The notes beneath the pieces are model-generated. The model saw nothing but the letters and a program-made list of their open reading frames with translations, was not told the DNA's origin and did no database searches. A DNA stretch of 35,002 bases from Marinifilum sp. (GTDB taxonomy: Bacteria > UBA9089 > CG2-30-40-21), in contig DYDG01000016.1 of NCBI GenBank assembly GCA_020717845.1, forward strand, positions 1 through 35,002. Direction: 5' to 3'. The position numbers and the translations under genes are program-made. Below are positions 5,460-35,002 of the stretch, piece after piece (the stretch's first letter is position 1; each line of letters begins with the position of its first letter).

Positions 5460-5750
5460 ATGACCATGAAGCAGCTGTTACACGAAAAGCGAATGGATAT
5501 TCAGGAAATTGCAGCAAAACATGGTGCTTTCAACTTACGGGTTTTTGGCTCTGTTGTTCGAGGAGAGGAAACTGAAGACAGCGATATTGATTTTTTGGTT
5601 AGTACTGGACAAAAAATCAGCCCATGGTTTCCTGGTGGGCTGATACTGGAACTCGAGAAGATGTTAGGACGGCCAATTGAGATTGTAACAGAGAAGGGAT
5701 TGAATTCTCTTATTCGAAGCCAGGTTATAATGGAGGCCGTTTCGTTATGA
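5460..5750 (+). CDS. MntA-type minimal nucleotidyltransferase antitoxin
   Basis: A 96-residue minimal nucleotidyltransferase. It has the pol-beta signature G30-S31 ... D42-x-D44 (FGSVVRGEETEDSDIDFLV), which binds ATP and two metals, and a C-terminal RPIEIVTEKGLN strand. In MntA/HepT pairs the nucleotidyltransferase neutralises the HEPN toxin, in studied cases by adding AMP to it. The stop codon overlaps the start of the next gene in ATGA (5747-5750), the usual arrangement. AGAGGG lies about 9 nt before ATG 5460. The pair sits between rplL and rpoB, which normally adjoin, so it is most likely an insertion. Confidence 0.9.
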   Translation: MTMKQLLHEKRMDIQEIAAKHGAFNLRVFGSVVRGEETEDSDIDFLVSTGQKISPWFPGGLILELEKMLGRPIEIVTEKGLNSLIRSQVIMEAVSL

Positions 5751-6082
5751 AAGATGACGCCGTTTATCTTCAATACATTCTGGAGTGCATTAGACGTATT
5801 GAGGAAGATGTTGCTTGTGAATACGATAGATTTATGGAGTCACATACTTGTCAGGATGCAGTGTTGAGGAACTTACAGACAATAGCTGAATCAACACAAC
5901 GGTTGTCAGAAGATATTAAAGCAGTATATCCTGAAGTAGAATGGCGAAGCATTGCAGCTTTCCGAAATGTCCTTGTTCATGACTATCTTGGTATTGACAT
6001 TGAAAGAATATGGGGAATTGTTCAAGAAGATGTGCCAGGATTAAAGAAAACAATACAGAATATGTTTGATGATATGAGCTAA
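5747..6082 (+). CDS. HepT-like HEPN ribonuclease toxin (DUF86)
   Basis: A 111-residue all-helical HEPN/DUF86 protein. The RNase motif R-x4-H-x-Y is intact as R73, H78, Y80 (FRNVLVHDYLGID). Upstream, QTIAESTQRLSEDIK and VEWRSIAAFRN match the family. HepT proteins cut RNA and stop growth when free of their nucleotidyltransferase partner. It overlaps that partner by 4 nt and has GGAGG ahead of its start. Only 22 nt separate its stop from the rpoB start, so rpoB is probably transcribed through it. Intact motifs suggest an active pair. Confidence 0.9.
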   Translation: MKDDAVYLQYILECIRRIEEDVACEYDRFMESHTCQDAVLRNLQTIAESTQRLSEDIKAVYPEVEWRSIAAFRNVLVHDYLGIDIERIWGIVQEDVPGLKKTIQNMFDDMS

Positions 6083-27958: not shown

Positions 27959-27987
27959 TTGATTTTTCGCAGAAAATGTGGTATATA
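27959..27987 (+). promoter_or_regulatory. Promoter for the giant membrane protein gene
   Basis: TTGATT (27959-27964), 17 bp, TATATA (27982-27987), with TGTGG just before the -10. It starts 17 bp past the end of the composite repeat and lies 31 bp upstream of the start codon at 28019. Confidence 0.7.
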
Positions 27988-28018
27988 TAAGAATAGTAAG
28001 AATATAAGGAGTATTAAT

Positions 28019-31000
28019 ATGCAGTTATTTAGCAATATCTGCAAATGGGCAACAATTATAGGTGCCGGATTAGGTTTTCTACATTCTATGGGTCTGGATG
28101 CGCCTGATATGGCAGTCGGAATTCTATGCGGTGGAATTGTAGGGCTACTGATAGGACTGGGTATTGGAATTATAGTTATAATAATTAAGCCCTTATCATC
28201 ATTTTTCTTACCTTCGGAATTGGCACAAAAAACATCTCCGGACAAACCGCCTGAATCCATGCGATGTCCACAATGCAATGGCTATAGCCGGAATGCAACT
28301 ATATGTAAAAAATGTCAGGCTAAATCGATATCTCTACAATCAGCACAGGTAGAAATAGGCCATATCGAATATTTGTTAAATGAGCTTAAAACCTGGTATA
28401 ATCAGGGATTAATTGATAACCAATTATATGCGGATCTTTCAGAGAGTTACTTAACGATAGAAGATAAACTTATACAGCAATCACAGTCAGTACAAGTTAT
28501 GGAAGAAAAAAACAGGATTGAAGAACCTGTGCCGACTGTTGTTGAGGAAAAGGAATCTGCCAAACATCTTGAGATGCCTGATGCAGAAAAAGTGCAAGTT
28601 AAGATACCACCTGCTCCTGAACTGCCACCCCCTGTAAAAATTCCACCAATGCCAAAGCCTGCGTCTATAGCGGCATCAGTAACCTCACCATCCAGCCATG
28701 AAAAGATATCGATTCCTATTCCGAAAAAGGTTGAGGTACCAACTCCTGTTCTGCCTAAAATACCCATCTCTGCTCGCGCCGCAAATATATTCGCCGCATT
28801 GACAAGTGAACAAAACATCAAAAGAGTGCTCTACATAGGCGTATTCCTTCTGGTAAGTTCAATAGTGGTTTTCTTAAATACAAGATGGGAGGTTATGCCG
28901 AATATCCTTAAACTTACTGTGGTCATCTTCCTTACCTTTGGGTGTTATCTTTCAGGGTATCTTATCTTTACCAGGCTGAATATTATTCGTACAGGGATAA
29001 GCCTTATTGTCCTTGCATCTCTTTTAATCCCCTTAGATTTTCATGCTGCCTTTAAATTTGGTATGCTTCCAATAAAGGATATATTTATGGCCAACATAAA
29101 TGCCCTGATTACCTGCCTTATCCTTTATACTATAACCGCTATCTTACTTAACTCACGGATATTTATATACCTTTCAGGTTTATGCGGGGCAGTTATTTTA
29201 GGGCTTAGTCTTTATAAGTTTAATATCCCCTATCACAGCTATGGTCTATCCTTTGCGATTTTAGGATTCGTATACCTTGGGATACATCAAATTGCCAGGC
29301 AATTAAAGGCAGATTTGTTTGATTACCCATTTTATATTAGTTCTATGATACTAATGGGGCTGGTTCAATTAAGCTCTTTTTACTTTTTAGACAGATATTT
29401 CGGAGTTTATGTAAATATTGGTATGGCTATTACTACCGCAGGGGTCATCTTTTTCTTACTCTCAACTTTTGTGTATAATGAAAGGCGGTTTATATACCCA
29501 GCAATGATTCTCTTAACCATGCTCACTGCATTTGTGCTCAGATATTACATGATTCCTATTCGGGAATGGTCATTATTTATAATGATACTGGGTTCACTGA
29601 TGGTGCTTGCCGGTTTCGTAGTCAAGGATGAAGAGATTAGTATGCCCCTTTATCGGGTTGGGGCATGTGTGAGTCTTCTTGCCTTTATAGGTGTAGTCTG
29701 GCTAATCCTAACAACAGGGAATATCTTGTGGCATGATATCATTGCCATCTTGATTGGTGCACTTCTCACAGGAATCAGTGGGTATTTTACCAGAAACAAA
29801 TACCTTATCTATAGCTCGCTCATACTATTCTCCATGCTCACTGCATTTGTGCTCAGGTATTACATGATTCCTATTCGGGAATGGTCATTATTTATAATGA
29901 TACTGGGTTCACTGATGGTGCTTGCCGGTTTCGTAGTCAAGGATGAAGAGATTAGTATGCCCCTTTATCGGGTTGGGGCATGTGTGAGTCTTCTTGCCTT
30001 TATAGGTGTAGTCTGGCTAATCCTAACAACAGGGAATATCTTGTGGCAGGATATCATTGCCATCTTAATTGGTGCACTTCTCACAGGAATCAGCGGGTAT
30101 TTCATCAGAAACAAATACCTTATCTATAGCTCGCTCATACTATGCTCTATTGCTTATTTACTAACTTTGCTTATATTGAATATCCCACTTTATCTCTTAG
30201 GGATATGGACCATAGGCTTTTCCATACTAATGCTTATATTGGGCTATCTCCTAAAAAAAACCCTCTTTGCTGTTCCCCTTAAAGTGATAAGTCAGATTGG
30301 ATGCACCTTATCTTTTCTTTGCATAGGCTGCCGGTTATTTTTCTGGTTTCCGGAAGAGAGATTGCAGATTGCTCTCAGCATACTTCTGGCAACCATTTAT
30401 TATTGTTTATCAGCAGTATTCTATCGAAAGAAGATATTTGTCTATCTTTTCGGTGGTTTGTCCCTTATCTCTGTCACCTGCTTCCTATATAATCCTGATG
30501 CTGGGTGGGATTATTATTCTTCAATGATGCTTCCTGTTATAATTTCTTTGATGGGAATCGGATTTATCTCCGATAAATTGGGTTCCAAACTATTCCCTAC
30601 ACCTTTATATGAGGTAGGAATCTGCGGCAGTTTGATTATCTTTTTAACCACTTTAATAGGCTGTCTCTTAACAAAATCTTTGGATACAACTATCCTGGTT
30701 TTCGGCATACTCACATTAATTTATTCTATTTTCGCCTTAAATGACCTTAAAGAGACCATATTTAAGGGGGTATTCTTTGTCTGGTTAGCCGGTATATCCA
30801 CGGCTATCACCTATTTTGTTATTCTGCTGAAGTTAAATATAGACATTAATCACCTCGGGCTTTATTACCTTTGTTTATCTCCACTTATGATAGGATTTTC
30901 TTCTTGGCTAAAGAAAACTGAAAAGAGTCGATATGCAAATCCACTCTTAATCACAGGAACCATTGTAACCTTTGTTTCTTTATGCACATCAATATGGGAT

Positions 31001-33379
31001 ATCAATATCTTTCTCTGTGTTCTTTTCATAGCCTCTTTCATCTATGGTATCATGGCATATTATCTTGAACATGATGATGAGATAAGTCCATTATATTGGA
31101 TAAGCCATATACTGATGGGAATTGTGATGTTCACATTTTTCTTGCGATTGTCCATTTATTTCGGAGAGGAGCTTACAGTCGGGATTCTTATTATGCTGAC
31201 TTCTATTTTTTATTATTCTTGTGCAACCTATTTTTTCAAGAAAAGGATGTATATATATCCTGCCCTGGTTCTTTCAGTTATCCTTACTGCTCTTATTCTC
31301 AGATATTACATGTTCCCTATCCGGGAATGGTCACCATTTATGATGATATTGGGGACACTGATGTGTCTTGTCGGTTCTGTAGTTAAGGATGAGGGGGATG
31401 CTGCACCTCTTTACAGGATTGGAGCATCTGTCAATCTTCTTGCTCTTATAGGTGTAGCCTCTCTGATCTTGATAACAGGAACTATTATATGGCATGATAT
31501 TATTGCTATTCTGATTGTTTCCATCCTCTTGGGAATCAGTGGGTATTTTACCAGTAGCAAGTATTGTATCTATGTCTCGATTATATTATGTTCACTTGCT
31601 TATCTCCTAACTTTGCTTATCTTGAATGTCTCCTCTCATCTCTTAGGGATATGGACCATTAGCTTTTTCATGCTACTGCTTATTATTGGGTATCTCCTGA
31701 AAAAGAGCATTTTTGCCAATCCCCTGAATGTAGTGAGTCAGCTTGGATGTTCTTTCTCTCTGTTGTATTTATTTTACCAGCTATTCTTGCGATTTACGCA
31801 AGAGATATGGACTGCTGCCGTTATCACGCTTATGGCTACTATTTATTATTGTCTCTCAACAGCATTTCATCGAAAAATGATATTTGTTTATCTTGCAGGG
31901 TGTCTATCCCTTCTCTGTACCTTTTTCTTCTTATATCTCTTTGATATTGGGTGGGATAAAGCCATGCCATTAGTAATATTAGGTGTGGTTTTTCTCATGG
32001 CAATAGCCTATTTTGCCGAAAGGATTAAATCAGAACTCTTATCCAAACCACTTTATGAGATTAGCCTTGTAGGATGTTCACTTATCTTGCTATTTACTTT
32101 ATGGTTCGGTTTTATGAACGGACTTTATCAGCCCATTCATCAGGAGTGGATACTCTTATCGGTTTGTGCCATTTCGATATTTATCTATTCATTCCTTGCC
32201 TGGTCAAACCGGGAGATATTTGGATTAAGCAGGGTTGATTATACATGCCTGGCCGGAGTGAGTATGATGTTTACTTATGCCATGTTTCTATTCTTCAAGG
32301 TAGAACCTACCCTGCTCGGGATTTATTTTATCTACCTTGCCCCAATTATGATAGGTCTTGGATACCTGCTTAAGAGATTGGGAGGAGAGGTAACGCCACT
32401 TCTTATAATCGGTTTGATTATCCCCATTGCTTCTCTAATTATTTCGGTATCAACCCGAGTAGAACTACCTATTTTACCATTGGTTGTGTCAACAATCATC
32501 TATACATGGGCATGTTATCTTTTTGAAAAAGAATATTTTGCCTATATTTCATATAGCAGTATTTTGTTAGCTTACTTTTTTATATTAAATAGATTAAATG
32601 CCGCCTTTTTAAACTATGGACTCTGGATATTGACCCTTATTCCGATACTGGCTATATCTAAAGACAAACAATTTTCGAAAAAATCAAAGCTTTTTGATAT
32701 AGGAATGACCGTATCCGTAGTTGGAACATTAGCATTTGTTTTTGCCTATATAAAGAATTTAATCCCTTTCCCGATGCTTATGATAATTATTATTACTCTT
32801 GCCAGCACTATCTATCTTCTTGTCGGATATGTAGTAAGAATGTCCCGTCTTTTTTACTTAGGATTATTGATGTTTATTGGCAGTTATTATATTTTATTAC
32901 TGCATCTTGAACTCCGTGATTTTGACCTGAATGTAATCCCGGTGTCCTTATTATTGATTTATCTGGGATTCAAGGATAATTTTTTGAAGGACAAATTCCT
33001 GATAGCAACTAACCATTTTTATCTGGCAGGTCTTATTTTGCTTTTTGTGCCTCAACTTAGCAGGTCTTTTGAAACAGGTGGACTCTATCATGCTCTGATT
33101 CTCTTTATTTTCAGTCTGGCATCCATCTTTTTTGGGATGGTGCGTAAGATTAAAGCATTCTTCTTTATGGGGATAGTAGCTTTTGTGGTGAATGTACTGG
33201 TTCAGGTATTCATCTATTTACATCTGGGGTCACTACCCAAGTCAATCTGGGGTGCATTGGTGGGATTACTTTTGATAGGAATAGGATTTTTTGCTGAAAA
33301 GAGGCTCAATAATATTCTGATAGAACGTATCGCTGAAACAAAAAAGGTAGTTACAGAAAAATTTTCAGATTGGAAATAG
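28019..33379 (+). CDS. Giant polytopic membrane protein (SCO7613/DUF2157-like)
   Basis: A 1786-residue protein. ATG 28019 has AAGGAG 7 nt upstream, so I reject the TTG at 27959. Two membrane helices (about 10-57) come first. A zinc-ribbon-like C83-x2-C86-x9-C96-x2-C99 follows, then a helical stretch (IGHIEYLLNELKTWYNQGLI) and a Pro-rich linker. A long run of dozens of hydrophobic helices starts at VLYIGVFLLVSSIVVFLNTR, typical of proteins annotated as SCO7613 C-terminal or DUF2157 membrane proteins. No function is established. Helix blocks recur: a block at DNA 29836-30540 is repeated at about 31282-31985 (offset 1446 bp), and a 315-bp unit is tandemly repeated almost exactly within the first. 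Confidence 0.85.
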   Translation: MQLFSNICKWATIIGAGLGFLHSMGLDAPDMAVGILCGGIVGLLIGLGIGIIVIIIKPLSSFFLPSELAQKTSPDKPPESMRCPQCNGYSRNATICKKCQAKSISLQSAQVEIGHIEYLLNELKTWYNQGLIDNQLYADLSESYLTIEDKLIQQSQSVQVMEEKNRIEEPVPTVVEEKESAKHLEMPDAEKVQVKIPPAPELPPPVKIPPMPKPASIAASVTSPSSHEKISIPIPKKVEVPTPVLPKIPISARAANIFAALTSEQNIKRVLYIGVFLLVSSIVVFLNTRWEVMPNILKLTVVIFLTFGCYLSGYLIFTRLNIIRTGISLIVLASLLIPLDFHAAFKFGMLPIKDIFMANINALITCLILYTITAILLNSRIFIYLSGLCGAVILGLSLYKFNIPYHSYGLSFAILGFVYLGIHQIARQLKADLFDYPFYISSMILMGLVQLSSFYFLDRYFGVYVNIGMAITTAGVIFFLLSTFVYNERRFIYPAMILLTMLTAFVLRYYMIPIREWSLFIMILGSLMVLAGFVVKDEEISMPLYRVGACVSLLAFIGVVWLILTTGNILWHDIIAILIGALLTGISGYFTRNKYLIYSSLILFSMLTAFVLRYYMIPIREWSLFIMILGSLMVLAGFVVKDEEISMPLYRVGACVSLLAFIGVVWLILTTGNILWQDIIAILIGALLTGISGYFIRNKYLIYSSLILCSIAYLLTLLILNIPLYLLGIWTIGFSILMLILGYLLKKTLFAVPLKVISQIGCTLSFLCIGCRLFFWFPEERLQIALSILLATIYYCLSAVFYRKKIFVYLFGGLSLISVTCFLYNPDAGWDYYSSMMLPVIISLMGIGFISDKLGSKLFPTPLYEVGICGSLIIFLTTLIGCLLTKSLDTTILVFGILTLIYSIFALNDLKETIFKGVFFVWLAGISTAITYFVILLKLNIDINHLGLYYLCLSPLMIGFSSWLKKTEKSRYANPLLITGTIVTFVSLCTSIWDINIFLCVLFIASFIYGIMAYYLEHDDEISPLYWISHILMGIVMFTFFLRLSIYFGEELTVGILIMLTSIFYYSCATYFFKKRMYIYPALVLSVILTALILRYYMFPIREWSPFMMILGTLMCLVGSVVKDEGDAAPLYRIGASVNLLALIGVASLILITGTIIWHDIIAILIVSILLGISGYFTSSKYCIYVSIILCSLAYLLTLLILNVSSHLLGIWTISFFMLLLIIGYLLKKSIFANPLNVVSQLGCSFSLLYLFYQLFLRFTQEIWTAAVITLMATIYYCLSTAFHRKMIFVYLAGCLSLLCTFFFLYLFDIGWDKAMPLVILGVVFLMAIAYFAERIKSELLSKPLYEISLVGCSLILLFTLWFGFMNGLYQPIHQEWILLSVCAISIFIYSFLAWSNREIFGLSRVDYTCLAGVSMMFTYAMFLFFKVEPTLLGIYFIYLAPIMIGLGYLLKRLGGEVTPLLIIGLIIPIASLIISVSTRVELPILPLVVSTIIYTWACYLFEKEYFAYISYSSILLAYFFILNRLNAAFLNYGLWILTLIPILAISKDKQFSKKSKLFDIGMTVSVVGTLAFVFAYIKNLIPFPMLMIIIITLASTIYLLVGYVVRMSRLFYLGLLMFIGSYYILLLHLELRDFDLNVIPVSLLLIYLGFKDNFLKDKFLIATNHFYLAGLILLFVPQLSRSFETGGLYHALILFIFSLASIFFGMVRKIKAFFFMGIVAFVVNVLVQVFIYLHLGSLPKSIWGALVGLLLIGIGFFAEKRLNNILIERIAETKKVVTEKFSDWK
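29521..30148 (+). repeat. Near-identical 315-bp tandem duplication inside the giant membrane protein
   Basis: Positions 29521-29835 repeat at 29836-30148 with only a handful of base differences (for example agatattac/aggtattac, gcatgat/gcaggat). Each unit is 105 codons, so the frame is kept. It encodes FVLRYYMIPIREWSLFIMIL twice. The high identity implies a recent event or ongoing gene conversion. Confidence 0.93.
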
Positions 33380-33400
33380 GAATAGCAGAGTGGTGGCATT

Positions 33401-33427
33401 ATTATTGGAGACGGCGTCCCTAATAAT
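33401..33427. repeat. Hairpin between the giant gene and the flagellin-IN gene
   Basis: ATTATTGGAGAC (33401-33412) pairs with GTCCCTAATAAT (33416-33427), with one mismatch and a wobble pair. There is no T tract; it lies 22 nt after the stop at 33379. It may be a mild terminator or another dispersed hairpin. Confidence 0.5.
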
Positions 33428-33472
33428 ACGATTCAATTCACTCAGCAGTAATTATACAAGGAGGTGCCAAAA

Positions 33473-34444
33473 ATGAGTCTTTTAAGGGATATTTTCGGCA
33501 TATTACAAAAAGAGGGTTTTGTATCCAGGATTAAAGAGAACAGAGGTTTAATGACTTCGTTTATTGTTGGGGTAATAGCAATGTTGCTTTTCAGTTCCAT
33601 GTATGGTTTTGCTATGGGAATTAGTGTAAGTGGGAATGTAGCCATAAAAAACACCTTTAAGCTTCCGGCTATATTTCTTTTGACATATTTAATTGGCATT
33701 GCCCCTTTTATTGTAAGTTTTCGTTTTGTAGGGGGGAGAGACTCTCACTTAAAACTGTGTATTATGATTCTCTCAGGGTTTATAACAAGTTCAATCATCC
33801 TGGCAGCTACTTCTCCTATAGTATTTCTATATACCTTACTTAAATATGTTGGTGGAGGGCTGGCTCATATAATAATTATTGATATAGCCATATTACTTGG
33901 CGTCTATATCATGTCTGCCTGCTTTTACCATTCTCTGGAGATGGATAGGACAAAAATGATTTTGCCGATTTTTGTGGGGACATTGTTAACTATTCTTGCC
34001 CTTTATCTTCTATCCCAGTTCTTTGCACCCTTTATGCAAGAAACTACTAAAGAGATTGTAAGCCAAGGTGTTGTGAGTGTGAATGGAAAAGGATTGGATA
34101 TTGATGCATCCTGGACAGAGGCTGGATTTAACAAGTCTCCGAAAGGGAAAATCATTATCAATGGAGCAGAATTTATCATAGAGAAATACCCAAATATGTC
34201 GGCTTTAATGGATGCGATAAACAAAAGCCATATAGCCGAGATAAGCATATATTATTCCGATGATAGATTCAGGTTAAAAACAGACAAAGTGGGTTCCACA
34301 ATAAGTATTGCCGAACTATCTGTGCCCCCTGACGCAGGTTTCTTTACCCTGATTAAGATAAAGCCAGGTAACCCGAATGCCCCAGCTACTTATCGAACAA
34401 CTTATTTTTGTGATGGATTTGAAATGCTTAAGAAGTTGTTTTAA
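33473..34444 (+). CDS. Membrane protein with a C-terminal flagellar hook IN-like motif
   Basis: A 323-residue protein. About five membrane helices occupy residues 27-186 (for example LMTSFIVGVIAMLLFSSMYG). After a short linker, residues 209-282 look like the IN motif of FliD/FlgK (Flagellin_IN): DIDASWTEAGFNKSP, KGKIIINGAEFIIEKYPNMS, ALMDAINKS, then DDRFRLKTDKVGSTISI. In flagellar caps this motif sits in exported filament proteins, not in membrane proteins, so the combination is unusual. ATG 33473 has AAGGAGG at 8-nt spacing; the frame's GTG 33464 overlaps it. It lies 93 nt after the giant gene in the same direction. Confidence 0.7.
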   Translation: MSLLRDIFGILQKEGFVSRIKENRGLMTSFIVGVIAMLLFSSMYGFAMGISVSGNVAIKNTFKLPAIFLLTYLIGIAPFIVSFRFVGGRDSHLKLCIMILSGFITSSIILAATSPIVFLYTLLKYVGGGLAHIIIIDIAILLGVYIMSACFYHSLEMDRTKMILPIFVGTLLTILALYLLSQFFAPFMQETTKEIVSQGVVSVNGKGLDIDASWTEAGFNKSPKGKIIINGAEFIIEKYPNMSALMDAINKSHIAEISIYYSDDRFRLKTDKVGSTISIAELSVPPDAGFFTLIKIKPGNPNAPATYRTTYFCDGFEMLKKLF

Positions 34445-34864: not shown

Positions 34865-35002
34865 ATGGCAAGAATTATAATTCCAGATATTCCATATCAT
34901 CTTACTCAAAGAGGTAATTATCGACAAACAGTTTTTAGAAGTGAAGATGATATGTAGAAAGAAATCCTGTGTGGACAGGATTAGTGGAAAGAGCAGAGGA
35001 TT
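34865..35002 (+). pseudogene. REP-associated tyrosine (Y1) transposase with internal deletion
   Basis: ATG 34865 opens the typical RAYT N-terminus, MARIIIPDIPYHLTQRGNYR then QTVFRSEDDM, which stops at TAG 34955. In another frame (+2) directly after it, from 34954, the DNA encodes VERNPVWTGLVERAED, which matches the C-terminal ERNPVRAGLVERAEDY block of the family. About 100 codons, including the HUH metal-binding histidines and probably the catalytic Tyr, are missing between them, and the frame is shifted. It is therefore a decayed or internally deleted copy; the gene continues past the window edge. A REP-like hairpin and a promoter lie just upstream. Confidence 0.85.

Follow-up and report, generated by a model that had tools for sequence, protein, structure and literature searches.

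Near the end of the window (the whole stretch of 35,002 nucleotides that we analyzed, from a single metagenome-assembled genome) lies a gene whose product joins five predicted membrane helices to a module resembling the IN motif of flagellar proteins, preceded on the same strand by a gene for a very large polytopic protein (Table 1). The contig appears to be a genuine part of the source genome, judging by its rpoB, which is 93, 90 and 85% identical to those of three genomes of the same genus. The initial annotation had reported no flagellar genes nearby, which is correct within the window, none being found elsewhere on the contig, but which does not extend to the downstream side, where the contig ends 558 bases past the stop codon. 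At this end (about 34865-35002), the start of a transposase-like frame (MARIIIPDIPYHLTQRGNYRQ...), which from its appearance we take to be of the IS200/REP type, is broken by an early stop. Elsewhere on the contig, a HepT-like ribonuclease gene (5747-6082) sits between rplL and rpoB in the ribosomal protein/RNA polymerase cluster. An intergenic hairpin at ~33399-33429 was discarded, as it was not clearly better than shuffled sequences (z -1.1).

Table 1 Features of the fusion gene and its surroundings, with two further proteins of the same genome that carry an IN-like module
Feature	Position	Strand	Basis or remark
Upstream gene, 1806-aa polytopic protein	27959..33379	+	Same strand; 93 bases before the fusion gene
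Shine-Dalgarno-like GGAGGT, 5' of the fusion-gene ATG	33460..33465	+	Sequence
Whole fusion gene, 323 aa: five-helix membrane protein with C-terminal IN-like module	33473..34444	+	ORF (ATG at 33473, stop ending at 34444), ribosome-binding site
Five transmembrane helices (predicted), residues about 26-188	33548..34036	+	Hydropathy, charge, AlphaFold2, jack-knife profile
IN-like module with flanking linker and tail, residues 190-311	34040..34405	+	Homologous to FlgE residues 208-335
IN core as named in the initial annotation, residues 209-282	34097-34318	+	
C-terminal tail without match (FCDGFEMLKKLF)	34406..34441	+	Low model confidence
Giant surface protein, 2305 aa, IN-like module	G000:C9:9777-16691 (L083)		
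Giant surface protein, 1593 aa, IN-like module	G000:C155:1949-6727 (L084)		

The C-terminal half of the fusion protein is tied to the flagellar hook by direct sequence comparison. With the FlgE of its own genome it aligns at 39% identity over 129 columns (BLASTP, E 1e-18), an alignment that spans the module plus the preceding linker and the following tail, and in which the stretch AGFNK(S/T)P.G.I.INGAEF, the INKS region, GFFT and the flanking linkers are shared. When this part was searched against the whole genome, it matched one other place, a 1525-codon frame (G000:C97, E 1.2e-14) that holds the gene for this FlgE, a 1516-aa protein encoded directly behind a FlgD-like gene and containing Flg_bb_rod, LlgE_F_G_D1, FlgE_D2 and Flg_bbr_C domains together with several IN modules. 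A jack-knife profile made from the modules of 24 relatives, with the fusion protein left out, recovered residues 195-303 at 109 bits (E 1.4e-32), compared with 5.8 bits for the best of 2000 composition-preserving shuffles, and matched no other ORF of the window. The same module occurs in FlgE, flagellin-like and FliD-like proteins of related genomes, and the fusion protein's copy is 39-43% identical to flagellar copies. Searching contigs with the module alignment returned four loci, FlgE-type and apparently in sister genomes already seen; the module profile gave weak, implausible matches only among PDB sequences, and PHROGs held no match for the fusion protein's copy. Taken with the single ORF, these results bear out the earlier description of a hook IN-like module fused to a membrane protein, and we regard both the homology of the module and the reality of the fusion as close to certain.

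The check proposed in the initial annotation, a direct match to the Flagellin_IN model (PF07196), failed: neither the fusion protein nor the whole of its own genome produced one, even at E 10. The model does match 7 of 25 aligned homologous modules (best E 7.3e-8), and because these homologues link the module to PF07196, its identity as IN-type by homology, beyond the range of the Pfam model, is well supported at the level of sequence. Profile searches found no Flg_bb_rod, Flg_bbr_C, FliD or flagellin domain in the fusion protein. In a tree of the modules, FlgE module 1 groups with flagellins, FliD and the fusion-protein module, and FlgE module 3 groups with secreted giant proteins; the fusion-protein module itself forms a long unresolved branch of 1.14 changes per column. 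As a separate observation, flagellin-like genes (640-820 aa, holding up to several IN modules apiece) are numerous in two related genomes, G008 and G013, each of which has 28-29 module copies (loci L058, L059, L011, L012, L021, L022, L025 and L029).

Structure prediction gave a confident AlphaFold2 model of the module (34040-34441; pLDDT 88, pTM 0.81), whose best Foldseek matches were to contractile phage sheath (E217, 8env and 8fvg; probability 0.95-0.97, TM 0.43-0.50) at an E of only 0.02 and 13% identity, followed by a weaker match to H. pylori flagellin (E 0.6-0.7); neither the module nor the membrane half found anything at E<=0.001. Several tail proteins were among the module's best matches in a viral structure library, and four homologous modules touch DUF3383 (best E 4e-4). 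A deep kinship between the insert domains of hook and phage sheath is possible on the basis of these models, and we offer it as a lead.

The membrane half agrees with the "about five" helices of the initial annotation, as both hydropathy (segments at about 25-50, 61-86, 92-122, 126-153 and 160-186) and AlphaFold2 (long helices at 26-50, 54-85, 92-122, 128-155 and 159-183; pLDDT 83, pTM 0.77) place five segments, with short helices in residues 1-25 ahead of the membrane domain that are probably cytoplasmic; behind the membrane domain come the soluble module of 120 residues and the short tail. Lysine and arginine counts of alternate loops are 5, 3 and 2 on the presumed inner side vs. 1, 1 and 1 on the other, a charge distribution that favors an N-in, C-out topology and thus places the module on the outer face. 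An inward N-terminus and an extracytoplasmic module are therefore predicted with high confidence, in line with the location first proposed for the module.

By sequence, this half can be assigned to a family of stand-alone five-helix proteins of about 250-300 aa from other phyla. A jack-knife profile of 13 homologues, again leaving out the fusion protein, matched residues 12-168 at 62.6 bits (E 5.5e-18), compared with 6.5 bits for the best shuffle, and the fusion protein keeps the family positions YG..MG, K.P and FVG. The polytopic 1806-aa neighbor did not match this profile, and thus serves as a useful control against generic hydrophobicity. Family members (G021, G047, G166, G212, G308, G314 and others) were found in 9 of 386 sampled genomes, the source genome included, with an early profile, and in 5 of 47 genomes of one phylum and 20 of 133 of another; the membrane half was not found in the 18 other genomes of the source phylum. 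It matched no NCBIfam family, no Pfam family above cut-off and no relative in the PDB, and these searches brought up no relative that had been studied by experiment. We rejected DUF7807 (PF25093), which matched one partial stretch at 20.3 bits (E 4.7e-4; curated cut-off 27 bits) and none of the other family members, as well as Yip1 (PF04893), considered for its five-helix layout only and matched by 0 of 14 family members. In two unrelated genomes (loci L035 and L039), a signal peptidase I-like gene adjoins the stand-alone five-helix gene.

The two halves meet where the family would normally end. Typical members close with Q.AW.LRPF.G and a short tail; the fusion protein lacks this ending and instead continues from FVGT into a longer helix, APF and the IN linker, so that the module starts a few residues past the last helix, at the point where the family tail (RPFLG...) would come. 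None of the stand-alone five-helix relatives seen carries an IN module, and about 500 sampled genomes (386 + 133, a few counted twice) yielded no second fusion of five helices and IN. When the whole protein was searched against the 133 genomes, every match was confined to the membrane half and came from frames of 261-293 aa, apart from one of 456; a contig search with the whole fusion protein had no matches. The architecture has thus been seen once.

The upstream gene encodes a protein with a zinc-ribbon-like motif at its N-terminus and a weak match to DUF2157. It has no counterpart in the 18 other genomes of the phylum, and none was detected in ten genomes with the stand-alone five-helix family, in a search run without a positive control. 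The 1806-aa protein is a candidate partner of the fusion protein, a partnership we suggest tentatively because of the missing counterparts in these ten genomes. Within this gene we also observed a near-perfect tandem duplication (29517-30147, 2 x 315 bases, 97% match) that repeats a block of helices and looks recent.

Beyond flagellar proteins, the module profile found further copies in the source genome, within two giant proteins on contigs C9 (E 1.2e-9; hhalign 96.9%, E 1.5e-10) and C155 (E 1.9e-9). Both contain FG-GAP, LVIVD, DUF11 or Ig-like domains and end in C-terminal tails that are type IX-like at a weak to moderate level, and both are adjoined by outer-membrane protein genes that we take to be PorV-like; the two giants are probably secreted. 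Frames of 2240-2486 aa with a module copy occur in five additional genomes of the phylum (G003, G004, G006, G007 and G017). A 25,495-aa frame in G011 was set aside as an artefact of N runs. The presence of the module superfamily in secreted, non-flagellar giants establishes its reuse outside flagella in this lineage.

Two homologies and a continuous reading frame are what we observe at this locus, and the reading we judge the best is that of an inner-membrane anchor that displays an outward-facing IN module as a binding domain, a function for which the balance of the evidence is moderately favorable. The five-helix domain, elsewhere a stand-alone protein, would have had its short C-terminal tail swapped for an IN-like module; the product would sit in the cytoplasmic membrane with its N-terminus in and its C-terminus out, exposing the module on the outer side, where, as part of the envelope, it would most likely bind proteins or polymers, possibly in concert with the 1806-aa neighbor. 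The fusion protein would then not be a structural subunit of the flagellum. It plausibly works outside motility, and a non-flagellar binding role seems somewhat likelier than its absence.

We considered whether the gene might be a recent, non-selected accident, in which recombination linked a membrane gene gained by lateral transfer to a fragment of a hook module and no settled function followed. The fusion is known from one genome only, neither it nor the upstream gene has a counterpart in any of 18 further genomes of the phylum, and an apparent transposase remnant lies at the contig end, all of which fit such an origin. However, the module sits on a long branch (1.14) and has diverged to 39-43% identity while its core positions and the frame remain intact, a combination that argues for age and constraint, and the ribosome-binding site is good. 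An accident is thus improbable, though far from negligible.

A role with the flagellum, in which the module would pair with the IN modules of FlgE or the filament, with, for example, a docking or checkpoint function on the envelope side, is likewise unlikely. The genome does encode a flagellum (FlgE, FlhA), and the module groups with flagellar m1-type modules rather than with those of secreted proteins. The contig, however, bears no other flagellar genes, and the fusion gene is missing in sister genomes of the genus, two of which have a module-bearing FlgE; the gene is therefore not needed for their hooks, which makes a flagellar role less likely. Hook subunits travel through an export channel, and contact between their outer domains and the inner membrane would not be expected. 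Export of the fusion protein itself through the flagellar type III apparatus appears unlikely because of its five membrane helices.

An assembly chimera or sequencing error that joined two genes is very improbable: although the fusion comes from a single metagenome-assembled genome, near a contig end and with no second copy, its junction, located between the last helix and the linker of the module, keeps the reading frame of a single ORF, the GC content of this ORF is normal, and the contig bears the rpoB/rpoC of the genus. Convergence of a generic beta-alpha-beta domain on an IN-like appearance, which the missing direct PF07196 match might suggest, is effectively refuted by the FlgE alignment and the profile score given above.

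Read as an outward-facing membrane anchor, the fusion protein represents a part of the flagellar apparatus reused at the cell envelope of one uncultured bacterium. That the IN module occurs both in secreted giants and on a polytopic membrane protein suggests an extracellular unit that is self-sufficient and transferable from one machine to another. With the fusion protein, the function of IN can be tested apart from the flagellum, so that effects are not hidden by a loss of motility. More speculatively, and with a low probability in our estimate, IN modules might serve in this phylum as general domains for adhesion or self-association outside the cell, present in hook, filament and giants, with the fusion protein as an inner-membrane receptor or anchor that recognizes IN-bearing envelope subunits.

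In curated descriptions, the IN motif belongs to hook, cap and filament proteins of flagella; to our knowledge it has no agreed function, and our search of the literature on its biology found nothing useful. Measured against known systems, the parts of the fusion protein are known and their architecture, a singleton combination of five helices and an IN module, is new. The insert of the genome's own FlgE is like the fusion module over its full length, linker and tail included, but FlgE has rod-type terminal domains and several modules, whereas the fusion protein has five membrane helices and one module. Flagellin_IN covers some of the homologous modules, yet not this copy. The stand-alone five-helix family resembles the fusion protein over the helices but ends in its RPF.G tail, with no IN domain. 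To the contractile phage tail sheath (E217), the likeness of the module model is one of fold, with homology not implied. Finally, the two secreted giants carry the same module superfamily outside flagella but are not polytopic, and their modules group with FlgE module 3, while that of the fusion protein is of the FlgE module 1 type.
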